The notes under the pieces are model-generated. The model was not told the DNA's origin and ran no database searches. It saw only the letters and a program-made list of their open reading frames with translations. Of a stretch of 64,000 nucleotides of DNA, positions 4,585 to 64,000 are shown one piece after another. Numbering within the stretch: position 1 is the first letter of the stretch; the number at the start of each line of letters is the position of its first letter. A program made the position numbers and the translations under genes. Source of the DNA: Spinacia oleracea (Eukaryota; Streptophyta; Magnoliopsida; Caryophyllales; Amaranthaceae); assembly GCF_020520425.1 (NCBI RefSeq), contig NC_079487.1, positions 107,294,141 through 107,358,140 on the forward strand, read 5' to 3'.

Positions 4585-5408
4585 CTCCCTCCGCATTTAA
4601 ATAAGAGATACATTTGACCGGACACAGATATTAAGGAAGAACTAGTATGTAACCCGGGCGTTGCCCCGGGTTTTGACTTTTATTCGGATTTTTTTTATAA
4701 AATATGTGCACGTAGAGATGGTGTTATCATCAAATTACGGTGGTGACATAAGATTAGTGGCCGATCAACAACCTCCCCGATTAAACCCATATCCAAAAAT
4801 CTAAACAAAGTCGGATCCTTTTCTTCAATGTAATAATTGTACATTTATGAATTAAGTAACCATTTATTTTTTTTGCATTCACTTTTATTCAATGTATTTT
4901 TTATTGTAAAACAAATATATAGGATTATATGGAAAGATATTACATAAGTTGTAGTTGGTTAAGATGGTAAGAAGTGTAACTTTTAACAAAGAGGTTTGGT
5001 GTTCGATCCTTGTTAGATGTTTTTTGTTGTAATAACGTGTCATGATGCTAATAAGTGGTGACGTGGCGTAATAAGGAGAGATCTACGTGACACGTATACA
5101 TTCTTCAAAACGCCTTTTAATATATTAGTATAGATAGTTGAATGAAATAAAACAATAAAGCAAGTGAGGTTGAGGTAAATATTTTAATCAAGTAAAATAA
5201 GTGGGGACCATTAATTTTGTAGGGATGTGAGGTGAGGGGCCGGGGTTTATGAAATTAATTGTTTAATGTGGTAGTGAGTCATATGGTAAATTAGATATAT
5301 TATTTAATTAGATGGTGGGGTTGAAAAGTTACTAAAAATGGTAACTGTGTCTCATATTTAAATACGGTCGGAAATGGTCGCGTGTCTCCTATTTAAATAC
5401 GGAGGGAG
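4585..5408. mobile_element. Stowaway-type MITE interrupted by a Helitron
   Basis: The terminal inverted repeats read CTCCCTCCGCATTTAAATA and, at the other end, TATTTAAATACGGAGGGAG, flanked by a TA target duplication (4583-4584 and 5409-5410). This is the Tc1/Mariner Stowaway pattern. A second copy of the family lies at 38997-39279 without the insertion. Leaving out the nested Helitron (4642-5134), this copy is about 331 bp. Near the right end the terminal segment is present twice in tandem, as in the other copy. Confidence 0.8.
4642..5134 (-). mobile_element. Helitron-like non-autonomous element (copy 1), 493 bp
   Basis: On the minus strand the element starts TCTATACTAATATATTAAAA after an A. 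It ends with a hairpin (ACCCGGGGCAACGCCCGGGT), a short spacer and CTAG before a T, which are the expected Helitron features: 5' TC, 3' hairpin plus CTRR, insertion between A and T. Removing it restores a continuous Stowaway sequence matching the uninterrupted relative at 38997-39279. On the plus strand it carries a tRNA-like block, with an A-box-like TAGTTGGTTAAGATGG near 4952 and a B-box-like GGTGTTCGATCC near 4998. It is larger than the other three copies and has no transposase frame, so it must depend on factors supplied elsewhere. Confidence 0.75.
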
Positions 5409-22249: not shown

Positions 22250-23615
22250 GGAGAAAATTTATGAGATTAGAGTAACAAATTGGCAATTTTGGGAATATCA
22301 GGTGGTGGTTTTTAGCTTCGGGTGGCAATCTGGTAACATGCCACTACGACAATTGCTCATCATTCATCAAGTGGAAATTTTCTTTTTTCTTGGCCATCAT
22401 AATCCCATGAAAAACACAGAAAATGTTCAAATGATTTTAATAAATAGGCCATCTTTTATATTTTTAAACAGTTAGATTGACTTTTTATCGCTTTTTATGC
22501 ACGCGATGCGCTTGTAATTTATTATCATGAAATAATATAATATGTTTAGGTAACGGTTTGTTAGCTTTGTGAAACGTTAGAATTAGTAGCGTTTAAAGGT
22601 TACAGGTAACGTTTAATAAATTTATAATAAAGTTTTAAACAATATACTCCGCATATAGATTTTATTGTAATATTACAGTATCAACCGTTATTTTTACTGA
22701 AAACTCATACAAGTTACCTGCTACTTTGACAGCTAGCCGTTACCCGCTACTATTCACCGCTAGTTTTTCCGAACATCAGCATTTTTTATTCTTTATGTGT
22801 TTCGTTTTGGACGTCCCTCCTTACTATTTACGTTTTAGGAGCTTCGTGCTACAATGTCTAATGTGTGTTTAGCTTCCGATGTAATAAAACTTTGTTATGT
22901 TCACCTCATTTCCACTTATTTCAAAAAAAAAAAAATTAAGTTCAAATAAGTTCAGTTAAGTTCAGGAAAAACAAGGGTTATCCAAGTACAATTTATAACT
23001 AAATAAGTTTTAACAAGTTCAGATAACTCATTTCTTTCTCTCACTTTTCTCTCTTCTGCTAGGGTTTCACTTTTCTTTATCGTTTAGGAAATTAGACTAT
23101 TTTCAACCCTTCTTGTTTTTTCCATCGTTTGTTCTTCAGGTTCTGGTTTTCTTTTTCTTTTTTTTTTCCATTTTCGTTGGTTTGTTCCTCATTTATTCTT
23201 GGGGGTTTCCTAGATTTTTCTTAGGTTTGTGATTTTCATCCATGGATGATAATTTTATTTATAGGGTTTCAATAATTGAAAATGTGATTTGGACTCATAC
23301 GAGTTTAACGTTTATCATCAACTCGTCGATCGGAACAATTCGTGCCTAAATTGCGAAGGACTCTACTTGGAAATTAGATGTGGAAACATTGAAAATCATT
23401 GCTCGCGTCAAGTTAGAAGCGGTGGAGTACAAGTTGTGTTTTATGATGCAAAATAGTAATTGTTGTGATTGCAACAATTATGTATTTACTTTAGATATGT
23501 GGTATACAAATTTATTTTATCGTCATAGATGTCGTATGGTTGATTATTCATGACATTGTTCTTCACTGTAAAAAATAAAATAAAATTAGACATGGCTAAA
23601 ATGATTTAAATAATC
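22250..23615. other. Spacer with degraded repeats, no gene seen
   Basis: This covers the region upstream of the KOC1-type gene. At about 22898-23040 is a relative of the AAATAAGTTCAG repeat family. It includes the phrase TACAATTTATAACTAAATAAG, which is the uninterrupted counterpart of the site occupied by the Helitron at 25646. A leader-like CTAGGGTTTCAC stretch near 23060 is followed by sequence without a usable frame. Confidence 0.4.
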
Positions 23616-23646
23616 ACTCGGGGCATCGCCCGAACCCAAAAACTAA
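23616..23646 (+). mobile_element. Detached Helitron-like 3' end
   Basis: CGGGGCATCGCCCG, capable of a short hairpin, is followed by AACCCAAAAACTAA and then T. This matches the 3' end of the Helitron family at 23651-23917, but I find no matching 5' part directly upstream. It abuts the next copy with only TCTA between them. Confidence 0.6.
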
Positions 23647-23650
23647 TCTA

Positions 23651-23917
23651 TCTATACTATATATTAAAAAGCGTTTATAAGAAAGTTTACGTGACACGTG
23701 GCACTCTGCTTATGAGTCATCGTTCGCTCCATGTACATAAAATTGTCAAACATGTTTTGCATAAGGTTTGAACCCTTGACCTTGAGTTTAAACATAAAAG
23801 CTTTTACCACTAAGCTATTAGATGTTTGATGTTACAATTGCAAAAAAAATTATACATAAGCATATGTGAATGTCATTAATGTACTAACCCGGGGCATCGC
23901 CCGGGCCAAAAAACTAG
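23651..23917 (+). mobile_element. Helitron-like non-autonomous element (copy 2), 267 bp
   Basis: It starts A|TCTATACTATATATTAAAA and ends with the hairpin CCCGGGGCATCGCCCGGG, CCAAAAAA and CTAG|T. On the minus strand it carries a tRNA-like block. TAGCTTAGTGG matches the polymerase III A-box and also sits in a D-arm-like hairpin. About 44 nt later GGTTCAAACC matches the B-box, within a T-arm-like stem AAGG/CCTT. No protein is encoded. Confidence 0.8.
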
Positions 23918-24079: not shown

Positions 24080-24119
24080 GTTGATATGGCCGAGTTGGTC
24101 TAAGGCGCCAGATTAAGGT

Positions 24120-24152
<33 letters not shown>

Positions 24153-24160
24153 TGTCAACA
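24080..24160 (+). tRNA. tRNA-Leu (AAG)
   Basis: An 81-nt class II tRNA with acceptor stem GTTGATA pairing with TGTCAAC plus discriminator A, a D arm, and anticodon stem CCAGA/TCTGG around TTAAGGT, giving anticodon AAG (24115-24117). A long variable arm (TCCGAAAGGGCG region) and a T arm GTGGG-TTCAAAT-CCCAC follow. A run of T follows directly, fitting polymerase III termination. It is identical over all 81 nt to the copy at 27042-27122. Confidence 0.95.
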
Positions 24161-25645: not shown

Positions 25646-25920
25646 TCTATACTATATATTAAAAAGTGTTTATAATAAAGTTTGCGTGACATGTAGCGCT
25701 ATGTTTACGAGCCTTTCACTCCATGTAATCTTCATATACATAAAAAAAAATGTTAAACATGTTTTGTCTAAGGTTTGAACCTCCAATCTTCAGTTTAAAC
25801 AACAAAGTTTTTACCACTAGATCATGACATGTTTCATGTTATCATTGCTAAAAAAAATATAACTAAATGTTAATTTTATTAATGTAGTAACCCAAGGCAT
25901 CACCCGAACCCAAAAACTAG
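25646..25920 (+). mobile_element. Helitron-like non-autonomous element (copy 3), 275 bp
   Basis: It begins A|TCTATACTATATATTAAAAA and ends CCCAAAAACTAG|T, with a decayed hairpin (CCCAAGGCATCACCCG). The flanks join as TACAA|TTTATAATTAAAATAAG. This matches the uninterrupted TACAATTTATAACTAAATAAG near 22990, an empty-site relative within the same window. On the minus strand it holds the tRNA-like block with TGATCTAGTGGT and GGTTCAAACC. Confidence 0.75.
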
Positions 25921-27041: not shown

Positions 27042-27081
27042 GTTGATATGGCCGAGTTGGTCTAAGGCGCCAGATTAAGGT

Positions 27082-27114
<33 letters not shown>

Positions 27115-27122
27115 TGTCAACA
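27042..27122 (+). tRNA. tRNA-Leu (AAG), second copy
   Basis: Identical to the 81-nt gene at 24080-24160, including the long variable arm and anticodon AAG (27077-27079). The flanks differ from those of the first copy, apart from a T-rich tract directly after the gene, so the pair is either an old duplication held alike by selection or conversion, or two insertions. Confidence 0.95.
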
Positions 27123-38200: not shown

Positions 38201-40529
38201 GTAAACTCGTACATCAACTAGCAATAGAAAAAATAAAAAACAACTTACTTGAAAAAGCGTGATAACATTTGCACTTGGGAAGTTATATGAAGACAGGGCA
38301 GCCTTATTAAACAATATCAAGAGCACTGCAAAAAGGAAATGCAAGCTGAGTTTCTATCCATACAATCAGCCAAATGGGAACAATCTTTTTACAGTAAGCT
38401 GTGTACATCACACTCCCGACACCGCCCCACCCTCCCTCTAGACCAGGCACTGTATCGCAAGCTCGGTATTTCATAAAAATAAAACTGAAAAAGGCAGAAC
38501 CAAGAAGTTCTAATGGTATTTGTACAACGAATAGCTTCCTCTAGATTATTCATATACGCCGTATAAGTCATAACTAGTTTTTGGGCCCGGGCGACCCCCC
38601 GGGTTTACATTAATAACATTCACTATTACTTATAATTTTTTTTATTTGCAATGATAACATGAAACGTGGCATGTCTTAGTGGTAGAGCCTTTATTGTTTA
38701 AACTCAAGGTTGAGGGTTCAAACCCTATACAAACTATGTTTGACATTTTTTATGTATATGAAGATTACATGAAGTGAAAAACTTATAAGCAGAGCGCCAC
38801 GTGTCACGTAAGCTTTTTAGATACTCCTTTTAACATATAGTATAGATTGTATTAAACTACTGATATTTGTGCAATGTATTTTTGTTTAGGGATAAAAGAT
38901 TACTCTGTAATACTTTCGTAAAATCGTAACCAGTTTCAGGAAATAACAGAATACACAGCTTTCACTTTTGAGATACGGCACAAACCAATTGTTATACTCC
39001 CTCCGTATTTATTTAAGAGATACACTTGGCCGGGCACGGGTATTAAGAAAAAGAATTGAATGAAATAAAATAATAAAACAAGTGGGGTTGAGTAGATATT
39101 TTAATAAGAAAAACAAGTGGGGACCATGTCATTTTAGGGAGTGGGGGGTGGGGGTGGGGTGTAGATATATTATTTAATTAGATGGTGGGGTTGATAAGTT
39201 ACTAAAAATGGCAAGTGTATCTCTTAAATAAATACGGCCGGAAAAGGCAAGTGTATCTCTTAAATAAATACAGAGGGAGTATGAAAGAGATAAATAATTC
39301 TGATGCACACATAGGAAATACCCACAAGATTTGCTTAGAAAACAATAACCAGTTATACCTCTATTTGTTTTTGTTTTTCCAAAAGCCACTAGAGCCTGCT
39401 ACTCATAGAAGCAAATAATTAAACCATGAACACTCAATCACTAGTTTTCCTGTTGACATAATAATACTCAAAGAACTTCAACTACTTCATGGTAAATTCT
39501 CTAGTAAGGCATCATGTCAATTGTCAATCAATGTCCTAATTTAATCAACAACAATCACAACTCCATCATTCATCAAACTCCATTACACTCAATCACCAGT
39601 TCCGTAGTGAGAAATTAAGGCAGAAATCCTAATGTACAAATAAAGGAAGCAACATTAAATTTTAAAACCCCAAAACCATCCCTCCACAAACAGAATTTCA
39701 TGCAAATTCATGCCAAATCTCAGCATCAAAGAACTGAATTTTCCATAAGCTTATAATCACATAAGGTATCATGTCAATCAATGTCATAATTCAATCAACA
39801 ACTAACACAGCGCCATCGTTCATCAAACTCTGTTACATCCAATCACCCGTTCGTTAGTGAGAAATTAAGGCAGAAAGCCTAATCTAAAAATAAAAAAAAG
39901 GAAGTAACTTCATACTTTTAACCCCCAAAACCATCACCCCACACCAAACAGAATTCCATACACTTCATAAACTCGCTGCAAATCCCACCATCAAAGCATT
40001 GATTTTCCATAAGCTTACACCAACCAATTTTCTGAATTTCTAGAGTTCCATAACCAAAACCTACTAAAATTAAAAGCATAATCAATCATAGACAATTTCG
40101 ATTCACAATCAATCGACGACGAGTTATGAGATCAAACACTTAGCTCTCAGATTTTCCCAAGACAAAACCTTTGAAATTATTAATCAAGCTCCTAAGCATT
40201 AACAAATCACACACAAATCCCTCAAAACATTCCAATCCATATCAATTCATCTACAACATTAAATTCGTAATTTAGAAACATTTATCTCAAATCACAACCA
40301 TATACCATAGAAATCGACAATAACACTAAACAATCAGTTGAATTACATTAAAAAATTCACCCCAGGAGAGAGAAAGTGGTAAATTACCAGCACAAGACAT
40401 ATAAGAAATGGCAGCATAAGCGCCACGTTTAGTCATGGCGGAACCTCGGAAGAGTTTATCGTCGAATTTGTTGGGAGGATCCGTGACCGGCAACATATTG
40501 GTCTTCTCTGAATTGGAACCCATTTGCAT
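35275..40529 (-). CDS. UGNT1: UGNT1-type Golgi nucleotide-sugar (UDP-GlcNAc) transporter, 342 aa
   Basis: Ten exons on the minus strand (40529-40388, 38325-38249, 37454-37293, 37199-37066, 36854-36724, 36638-36594, 36481-36384, 36222-36115, 35496-35440, 35349-35275) join without phase conflict to 342 residues. The protein is a ten-helix drug/metabolite transporter with family signatures: GAYAAISYMSCA in the first helix, VRGVNVPMYTTLRRTTV mid-protein, ARDLSFDAYGYG, then VFLANISTAIYLA, SGLNSFGLMWCNG, FLNTTLNSALTQTICGNLKD, and a last helix ending KLVGK. In Arabidopsis, UGNT1 (At4g32272) carries UDP-N-acetylglucosamine into the Golgi for N-glycans and sphingolipids, and it lies next to At4g32270, as here. 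The start used is the first in-frame ATG; a second ATG two codons on is equally possible. Intron 1 (2062 bp) hosts a Helitron, a Stowaway MITE and an internal duplication. Substrate is inferred from the family. Confidence 0.88.
38574..38846 (-). mobile_element. Helitron-like non-autonomous element (copy 4), 273 bp
   Basis: On the minus strand it starts A|TCTATACTATATGTTAAAAG and ends with a hairpin made from CCCGGGGGGTCGCCCGGG, then CCAAAAACTAG|T. The plus strand carries the tRNA-like block: TGTCTTAGTGG at about 38672-38682 and GGTTCAAACCC at about 38715-38725, the latter in a T-arm-like AGGG/CCCT stem. It sits in intron 1 of the UGNT1-type gene. Confidence 0.8.
38997..39279. mobile_element. 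Stowaway-type MITE, 283 bp
   Basis: Ends CTCCCTCCGTATTTATTTAA and TTAAATAAATACAGAGGGAG with TA duplications (38995-38996 and 39280-39281). The right terminal segment GGCAAGTGTATCTCTTAAAT occurs twice in tandem. It is the uninterrupted relative of the element at 4585-5408 and lies in intron 1 of the UGNT1-type gene. Confidence 0.85.
39508..40025. repeat. Tandem duplication of about 256 bp in UGNT1 intron 1
   Basis: The segments 39508-39760 and 39765-40020 share, in the same order, CATGTCAAT, CATCAAACTC, the exact 21-base phrase starting TAGTGAGAAATTAAGG, CCCCAAAACCATC and TTTTCCATAAGCTTA. They differ by many substitutions and small gaps, so the duplication is old. No coding content. Confidence 0.75.
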
Positions 40530-48424: not shown

Positions 48425-48814
48425 GGATACGTGCAGTCGTCTTCTTCAGAGTCGGTCGGTTCCAGTTGAGGACTTCCGAATGTGTGCTTGCCTTTCCCCC
48501 TTTTGCCTCGGCGCTGCGTTGTACTTGTTTCTTTTTGCTTTTTAGTACTTCGGTAGGCCGGTATTATCCGTTGATGGCTGCCGATTTTAACTGTTTCATT
48601 TTCTTTTCAATTTCTGAGGGTCCTCGGGTGTGTCCCGAGTTGGTTTGATGTATTTGTACTTCCCCCGAATATTGAATAAAAAATGAATGTTCGTTACTTG
48701 GCTGTCTCTTTTCAATTTTTTTTTTTTTTTTTTGTGCTTTCCGAAGTTTTAAGTCTGCCTTTGAACTTGTAACTCTCGAGCTTTTCTTTGTGGACTTGCT
48801 GAGGGATCCTTTGA

Positions 48815-49107
48815 CCTGTAGATCTACTAAGAGACTCTTCAGTTTTGCGAGTTCTTCAAATCCGTAGATCTGCTAAGAGACTCTTTAATTTTGCGAGTTC
48901 TTCAAATCCGTAGATCTGCTAAGAGACTCTTTAATTTTGCGAGTTCTTCAAATCCGTAGATCTGCTAAGAGACTCTTTAATCTTGCGAGTTCTTCAAATC
49001 CGTAGATCTGCTAAGAGACTCTTTAGTCTTGCGAGTTCTTCAAATCCGTAGATCTGCTAAGAGACTCTTTAATTTCCAGACTCTTCAAATCCGTCGATCT
49101 GCTCAGA
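48815..49107. repeat. 46-bp tandem repeat inside the retroelement, about 6.5 copies
   Basis: Units start GTAGATCTGCTAAGAGACTC at 48818, 48864, 48910, 48956, 49002, 49048 and 49093, a steady 46-bp period. The middle copies are nearly identical and the outer ones are diverged. Tandem repeats in the 3' untranslated part are typical of Tat/Ogre-group elements and can seed satellite DNA. Confidence 0.9.
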
Positions 49108-49504
49108 GGTCTGAATTGTTCTTCCGATCTCTTGTGGTTCAGAAACCTGGGCAAGAGATCGCTAGTCTGCCTCTTAGTTATGACTTTGGCGATCCGTGGA
49201 TCTGAGCCGAAGTTTTATAACTTGATTCGAGCGACTGTTTGTTGCGAACAAGGTTTATCTGGGTATCGCGAATCCGAGGATTCTGGACGATTCCCCGAAG
49301 TGTATGATTTGGTCATTTCTTGCATTTTATCAAGGAATGGGCAAAGTCAACCTGCTTTTGGTCTCGGATTGATCAGATCCGAGGCTGCATGTATATATAA
49401 AAAGACAATGAATTTGAAATATAGAGATAGGTTTAATGAAACACATGGCGCCAAACGGCTTTCCTCTTCTCATTTAAACAACTTACTTGGTTTACAGACA
49501 GTGA

Positions 49505-63665: not shown

Positions 63666-64000
63666 TCTATATTACTATATTAAAAAGGAGGAAATCAATG
63701 TGGAACTGATAAGTGTCTCTCTATGATTCGCCTCTCTTTTACTTATAAAAATATATATTAGTTAATTCATTCTATAGTCATTTTGTTAAATTCATCATAA
63801 CAGCCATATAGGAAATCCTCTATATATCTATATAATATAAAAATCTATTTATATCTATATAATATAAAGAGAGGAAATAAATGTAGTGATGACAAATGTC
63901 AATTATTGATTCTTCTTTCTTATAGATATAAAAAAAATACTTGGAGTAATGTTTTGTATATTTTTATTTAAACCTTTTAATTACTTTCTTCATCTAAATA
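63666..64000 (+). mobile_element. Helitron-like 5' end(s) running to the window edge
   Basis: A|TCTATATTACTATATTAAAA at 63666 resembles the 5' end of the Helitron family described above. A second similar start (TCTATATAATATAAAGAGAG) occurs near 63855. The corresponding 3' ends are not in the window. Very AT-rich, no genes. Confidence 0.4.

Follow-up and report, generated by a model that had tools for sequence, protein, structure and literature searches.

Non-autonomous plant Helitrons start with TC, end in a hairpin followed by CTRR and insert between A and T. Which cellular requirement makes the left end of a Helitron usable is not a settled question, and a 64-kb window of spinach DNA (the whole stretch analysed here) raises it in a specific form: four Helitron-like copies had been annotated as carrying a tRNA-like polymerase III (Pol III) promoter block on the strand opposite to the element. 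Is this block a chance feature, a relic of its origin or a working part of the left end?

All four copies proposed in the initial annotation were confirmed, each with TC after an A and with a GC-rich hairpin and CTAG before a T. The first, a non-autonomous Helitron copy of 267 bp on the plus strand (23651..23917; read from the sequence, ends by scan), shows an A followed by the TC start, a CCCGGG hairpin and a CTAG end followed by T. On its minus strand, antisense to the Helitron, it holds the A box TAGCTTAGTGG (23807..23817) and, in conserved alignment columns, the B box GGTTCAAACCT (23764..23774), which together reach the full A+B score of 20/20, and 21 nt past the B box a T4 run on the same strand (23739..23742) forms a putative Pol III terminator. 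The second copy (25646..25920, plus strand, 275 bp, ends by scan) has the A-box-like TGATCTAGTGG at 25814..25824 and the same B box GGTTCAAACCT at 25771..25781, both on the minus strand with a pair score of 18/20, together with a minus-strand T9 run as putative terminator (25742..25750). The third copy lies on the minus strand (38574..38846, ends by scan) with one mismatch in its 19-nt start; its A-box-like TGTCTTAGTGG (38672..38682) and B box GGTTCAAACCC (38715..38725) are on the plus strand, again antisense to the Helitron, with a pair score of 19/20 and a plus-strand T6 run as putative terminator (38746..38751). In these three copies the boxes lie 32 nt apart.

The fourth copy (4642..5134, minus strand, start TCTATACTAATATATTAAAA, ends by scan) is longer and more divergent, and here the annotation of GGTTCAAACC in all four copies turned out to be inexact. 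Read from the sequence, its plus strand carries a 12-nt version of the A box, TGGTTAAGATGG (4956..4967), which by eye is similar to that of copies L013 and L026, and the B box TGTTCGATCCT (5000..5010). The latter is found 125-135 nt from the 5' end, matching most other copies; a plus-strand T6 run follows 9 nt past it (5020..5025), and a T4 run (4981-4984) lies between the two boxes. Within the window, box-pair scores of at least 18/20 were reached only by the first three Helitron copies and one tRNA gene, and the two tRNA-Leu genes of the window score 17.

The 19-nt left end has 485 exact matches in the 894-Mb genome, and the reversed pattern has none. We used 100 of these exact-start copies, the first ones in contig order, from contig 1 and a portion of contig 2: a non-random sample with the 19-nt start as sole criterion and with two members in the 64-kb window. 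The base before the TC start, TC itself being part of the search string, is A in 97 and G in 3 of the 100 copies. A right end consisting of hairpin and CTAG was present within the DNA read in 73 copies, with T as the next base in 72 of them, and a looser test that accepts CTAG, CTAA or CTAT found a right end in 80 of 100. By the looser test, which may catch an inner CTAA so that some lengths are a few nt short, the elements measure 176 to 2110 nt, with 239-351 nt in 67 of the 80. Near-identical pairs occur, up to 99.6% over the whole element (L016/L071), and their flanks align no better than those of random pairs, indicating that close pairs moved as elements. The copies are a Helitron family with sound Helitron ends. 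In 15 of the 100 copies (L001-L098 and the window copies) TCTA stands immediately before the TCTATACT start, which may reflect a doubled left end or a target preference. The copies and their flanks contain 44 open stretches of at least 130 residues, and among the 25 of these listed no RepHel was seen by eye. One stretch of 427 residues in L022, running from position 238 of the element strand over the 3' part of the element and the flank, looks by eye like a mariner-type transposase. A scan of viral contigs for the Helitron start gave no match.

To score the boxes, the best A+B pair within the first 260 nt was taken, with a maximum of 20 and a threshold of 17. An A box followed by a B box in the 30-40 nt spacing of a type-2 Pol III promoter reached this threshold on the minus strand in 80 of 100 copies; none of 200 tests on flanking DNA (both strands of 100 upstream flanks, highest score 15) and none of 100 plus strands of the copies (highest score 16) did so. 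Chance boxes are ruled out by these controls. When spacings of 30-49 nt were allowed, a score of 17 was reached on 3 of 70 plus strands. The gap between the boxes is exactly 32 nt in 61 of the 80 copies above threshold. Measured from the left end, the far edge of the B box is at 124-145 nt in 65 of these 80; in nine others, several of them with spacer deletions, it is at 41-94 nt. Elements as small as L043 (about 260 nt) and as large as L057 (about 2.1 kb) have the block at this usual place, and the antisense tRNA-like Pol III block is recognisable in each of nine hand-picked subfamily groups. As judged from the letters, the 20 copies below threshold include some interrupted near the left end, some with a degenerate or shifted block and some in which the B box is lost. 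Altogether, the 332,520 bases read contain 99 box pairs at or above 17, 81 of them in sampled copies. By reading, the other 18 comprise three tRNA genes, about six SINE heads, about six pairs in Helitrons (two of which are displaced blocks of sampled copies) and three unclear cases. The block is far more widespread than the four copies of the window.

Most blocks are followed by a run of T. In the 76 of 89 alignment rows with a B-box match, the first T4+ run was located 10-29 nt past the B box in 67 copies. Counted over 8-38 nt past the B box, T4+ was present in 74 of 81 copies (shuffle mean 48.0, maximum 57) and A4 in 4 of 81, and T4 within the A-to-B stretch was found in 9 of 81 copies where 39 were expected. 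A T4+ terminator downstream and few such runs inside are features of a type-2 unit, and the margins become smaller in thinned sets: with 28, 13 and 10 copies the T-run past the B box was retained in 23, 10 and 8 (shuffle means 15.7, 6.5 and 4.6; maxima 21, 10 and 7, so that the count at n=13 merely equals the shuffle maximum), and T4 in the predicted transcribed stretch in 5, 2 and 1 (shuffle means 13.6, 6.6 and 5.1; minima 8, 3 and 2). T4 is common also at 30-40 nt before the A box. A search by eye for plant Pol III TATA and CAA motifs upstream of the block gave nothing firm. The T4+ run past the B box would place the end of the predicted RNA inside the element. Since this run is reached about 90-100 nt before the 5' end, a transcript running across that end, as considered in the initial annotation, is not favoured.

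If the block were a passive feature, the boxes might drift like their flanks, but box letters proved to be more conserved than the rest at every divergence level. For this comparison we used twelve core positions that are invariant in tRNA genes, selected by general tRNA rules once the first alignment had been viewed. In sets thinned to 73, 34, 16 and 10 divergent copies, the major base of the core reached 0.929, 0.922, 0.925 and 0.932, compared to 0.763, 0.711, 0.668 and 0.656 for a base-matched background, and the observed core conservation was reached by none of 20000 draws at any thinning level. These values are based on 89 rows before thinning, with 11 of 100 rows left out by eye. With all 100 rows, the core drops from 0.906 to 0.790 and the best slide from 0.862 to 0.755, and the true register was matched by none of 168 slid registers at any level; as the copies are kin, draws and shuffles treat them as more independent than they are. 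Conservation is also seen in the left terminal columns 20-57 (0.84 to 0.79) and is lower in the spacer columns 61-110 (0.76 to 0.61). Variation within the block resembles that of tRNA genes: positions 9, 15 and 57 vary nearly only between A and G (97-100% purine), and there is more freedom at positions 59 (0.76 at the first level) and 60 (0.59 at that level). Conservation is weaker at two A-box positions, 10 (0.72-0.89) and 11 (0.70-0.75).

On a tree built without the core columns, core positions changed less often than the background on internal branches (0.92 vs 3.15 changes per column) and on terminal branches (2.75 vs 4.54), again with 11 rows left out; all 100 rows gave 1.75 vs 4.17 and 5.08 vs 6.23, respectively. 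With the 89 rows, the ratio of internal to terminal changes was 11:33 for the core versus about 614:885 for the background (Fisher p 0.042), and 1:13 for nine positions picked after viewing the data (p 0.011). The stronger depletion on internal branches fits selection on those copies that go on to transpose; terminal branches are depleted at the core as well, which selection on source copies predicts less well. Long deletions averaged 13.0 events per column in the spacer, 6.0 in the B box and 0.0 in the A box (91 rows, 9 of 100 left out). Since the columns after the A box up to 200 are equally free of them (0.0), deletions were dropped as an argument for the boxes. The B box is touched by 8 of 49 long deletions; since a right end is matched in seven of these eight copies, loss of the B box is tolerated.

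How closely does the block resemble a tRNA? A simple Rfam call on the whole 64-kb window returned no match to the block at E values up to 10 with a search space of this size. In copy 23651..23917 the Rfam tRNA model matched 23761-23818 on the minus strand over model positions 7-64 with 19.8 bits (E 0.085), and L031, L057 and L022 scored 21.5, 17.5 and 14.2 bits. All four matches cover model positions 7-64 or 8-63 only and stay below the gathering score of 29, short of the full cloverleaf of a tRNA gene; an acceptor stem is ruled out, as it falls outside the match in all four elements. No Rfam tRNA match was obtained in L012 and in 19 of 20 loci of one search. The D- and T-arm stems of the initial annotation are indeed drawable, with 67% paired cells in the D stem and 76% in the T stem over the 89 rows (slid registers: 43-56% and 50-66%), but covariation gives them no support. 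None was detected in the stem pairs and no single pair was clearly above its shuffles, so column make-up explains the pairing, and a maintained tRNA fold was rejected.

We compared the sequence between the boxes of 27 hand-picked Helitron blocks with two SINE heads and two tRNA genes. Among eight Helitron groups the z-scores were 1.4-6.9; these groups scored 0.0-1.4 against the tRNA genes and between -0.7 and 3.9 against the SINE heads. The SINE scores overlap the lower Helitron scores: L070 scores 3.9 to SINE1 and L009 3.7 to SINE2, and the L013 group (L013/L026), with 0.3-2.3 to the other Helitron groups, is nearest to one SINE (SINE2, 2.5-3.1). Most subfamilies are nevertheless closer to each other than to the SINE heads and tRNA genes compared, and the capture of a SINE by a Helitron, an origin suggested earlier, is not supported by this comparison. 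Similarity between the boxes makes a single origin of the block likely for most subfamilies and a second origin possible for the L013-like elements. No SINE body or tail was seen in the copies; instead of an A/T-rich or simple 3' tail, 73 of 100 end in hairpin and CTAG, and the block points away from this end. By reading, SINE-like heads with other bodies occur nearby (L036 at 1400, L086 at 2355, L041 at 719 and L003 at 2249). They look like two true SINE families with the A box TGGCCTAGTGG, and L036, one of the first kind, continues into an A-rich end.

The anatomy of the block, its usual place and strand, the tRNA-type degeneracy in its conservation, the T-run past the B box and the scarcity of T4 between the boxes are direct observations. 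Based on these sequence features, we lean slightly towards a lineage of Helitrons in which a type-2 Pol III promoter and its terminator, near the left end, are under selection. A tRNA-like piece captured once by the founder could also have hitch-hiked, unused, near the left terminal sequence. One capture would fit the similarity between the boxes in most subfamilies, deletions do not specifically avoid the boxes, and the B box is partly or wholly gone in seven copies for which a right end was matched. Such a passive relic is unlikely in view of a core that stays at 0.93 while the adjoining spacer (columns 61-110) drops to 0.61-0.63, of variable positions that obey tRNA rules, and of the T-run past the B box together with the rarity of T4 between the boxes.

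The boxes could be intact due to freshness instead of selection, if subfamilies gained tRNA-like or SINE heads independently. The L013/L026 group, by eye also copy 4642-5134, has a shifted A box, and its low similarity to the other groups (z 0.3-2.3) with SINE2 as best match (2.5-3.1) points in this direction, as do the scores of L070 to SINE1 (3.9) and L009 to SINE2 (3.7). Repeated recruitment would, however, have to hit the same strand every time and usually the same distance (two SINE families, two tRNA genes and 27 blocks compared), and the other eight groups are closer to each other (z 1.4-6.9) than to tRNA genes (0.0-1.4), which makes it distinctly improbable. We give still less credence to the idea that the block is part of the RepHel transposase binding site and has only the look of a tRNA promoter. 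The usual distance to the left end (B-box far edge at 124-145 nt in 65 of 80) and the essential left end of Helraiser (PMC4778049, in the text available) are in line with such a site. The distance is not fixed, though, with the block at 41-94 nt in 9 of 80 copies, and the cleavage determinants of Helraiser are described within the terminal 40 bp (PMC4778049, text available). Moreover, a DNA-binding site predicts neither the freedom at positions 9, 15, 57, 59 and 60 nor the T-run and the T4 scarcity.

In the reading we prefer, one with a selected Pol III unit, conservation at the left end of these short non-autonomous Helitrons would have two parts. One, a terminal sequence some 57 nt long, is the likely transposase site. 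The other, on the opposite strand and usually about 115-180 nt in, would be a compact type-2 Pol III unit with 32-34 nt between A box and B box and, about 20 nt past the B box, a run of T4-T10. This unit would descend from a tRNA-like sequence in the founder of most subfamilies and would be kept in still-transposing lineages on account of the two boxes and the terminator rather than a tRNA fold. We infer that TFIIIC binds the unit and that Pol III makes an RNA with an estimated length of about 90-110 nt, which ends inside the element. Occupancy by TFIIIC and Pol III could keep the left end free of nucleosomes and silencing and thereby open to a transposase that cleaves ssDNA only. An accessible left end would be the simplest reading of the mechanism, but as a specific step it is doubtful, and the RNA itself might have a role. 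In Helraiser the left end is essential and ssDNA is cut but dsDNA is not, and the authors suggest that melted DNA may arise, among other ways, from under-winding in the wake of transcription (PMC4778049, in the text available). Under-winding behind Pol III would not melt the left end in the spinach elements, because the RNA runs towards it and the under-wound DNA would lie on the interior side, which in 270-nt elements is also the side of the 3' hairpin. We put forward tentatively, at somewhat less than even chances, the idea of a rolling-circle transposon lineage that needs a Pol III unit in its left end in order to spread, with occupancy or the short antisense RNA making this end available for replication or shielding it from silencing.

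We know of no other DNA transposon with a selected Pol III promoter. A selected unit would name a concrete host factor, TFIIIC/Pol III, for the use of the left end, and Helitrons of this kind would spread hundreds of candidate TFIIIC sites genome-wide. Annotation of Helitrons, tRNAs and SINEs would need to allow for such blocks. If true, Pol III dependence may be common in plant Helitrons, and the antisense overlap of ATREP10B and tRNAs in Arabidopsis could be another trace of it.

Several known systems share parts of this layout. The spinach copies resemble non-autonomous plant Helitrons in their 5' TC, the GC-rich hairpin about 7-9 nt before CTAG, the A before and the T after, and most of them are too short for RepHel; they differ by the conserved Pol III unit that lies antisense at their left end. 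With tRNA-derived SINEs they share the A box, the B box, the 30-40 nt spacing, the T-run terminator and the loss of the acceptor stem. In contrast to SINEs, the spinach elements have Helitron ends and no tail, and their promoter faces outward near the left end of a DNA transposon. In Arabidopsis, as far as the text of the source is available, tRNA-Cys repeats overlap annotations of ATREP5, HELITRONY1D and ATREP10B, and a 5'-terminal fragment of ATREP10B is antisense to tRNA genes; a captured non-coding RNA would be the first example according to the same source (PMC10701932). A tRNA beside a Helitron annotation in antisense layout links both cases (PMC10701932, text available). They differ in that the Arabidopsis repeats are tandem arrays of genuine tRNA genes, for which the accessible parts of this source give no reliable Helitron prediction; in spinach, many elements have a degenerate block as a usual component. 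The bat Helitron HelibatN3, with its captured NUBPL promoter, is likewise a Helitron that carries and spreads a promoter (PMC4778049, in the text available). It differs in that this is the promoter of a protein gene, captured once, and no selection on the promoter letters was found reported in the accessible part of that paper (PMC4778049). A repeat survey of spinach counts 1297 Helitrons, and the term SINE is absent from its text as available (PMC6337768). Among the matches listed in the open-licence literature, in the parts accessible, we found no description of a Helitron with such a Pol III unit.

As for an autonomous partner, the genome contains 154 RepHel matches, many with open frames of 1024-1140 residues, which by eye fall into at least three groups. 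Identical bit scores shared by several of them suggest recent activity. Among the 100 exact-start copies listed of 485, none is within 50 kb of any of the 30 RepHel places compared, and the closest start to a further place outside those 30 (C2:63113190) is about 0.74 Mb away among the copies listed. No matching left end and no minus-strand box pair above 15 were present in the 4-5 kb upstream of two RepHel genes, the true 5' ends of which possibly lie further out; one weak plus-strand pair of 17 was found upstream of RepHel in L100.

The surroundings of the four window copies contain further Helitron and tRNA sequences. A stretch resembling the right end of another Helitron (23604-23646, hairpin TCGGGGCATCGCCCGA and CTAA) nearly abuts the left end at 23651. 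The left end of a different Helitron type (TCTATATTACTATATTAAAAAGGAGG) is located at 63666-64000, with a similar stretch further on. The 335 nt of it that fall inside the window contain no B box, which shows that the block is not common to all Helitron-like starts here. Two tRNA-Leu(aag) genes at 24080-24160 and 27042-27122, about 3 kb apart, match at 91% over 112 nt, and the former sits between the Helitron copies at 23651 and 25646. Finally, a tandem array with a 46-nt period occupies 48772-49121.
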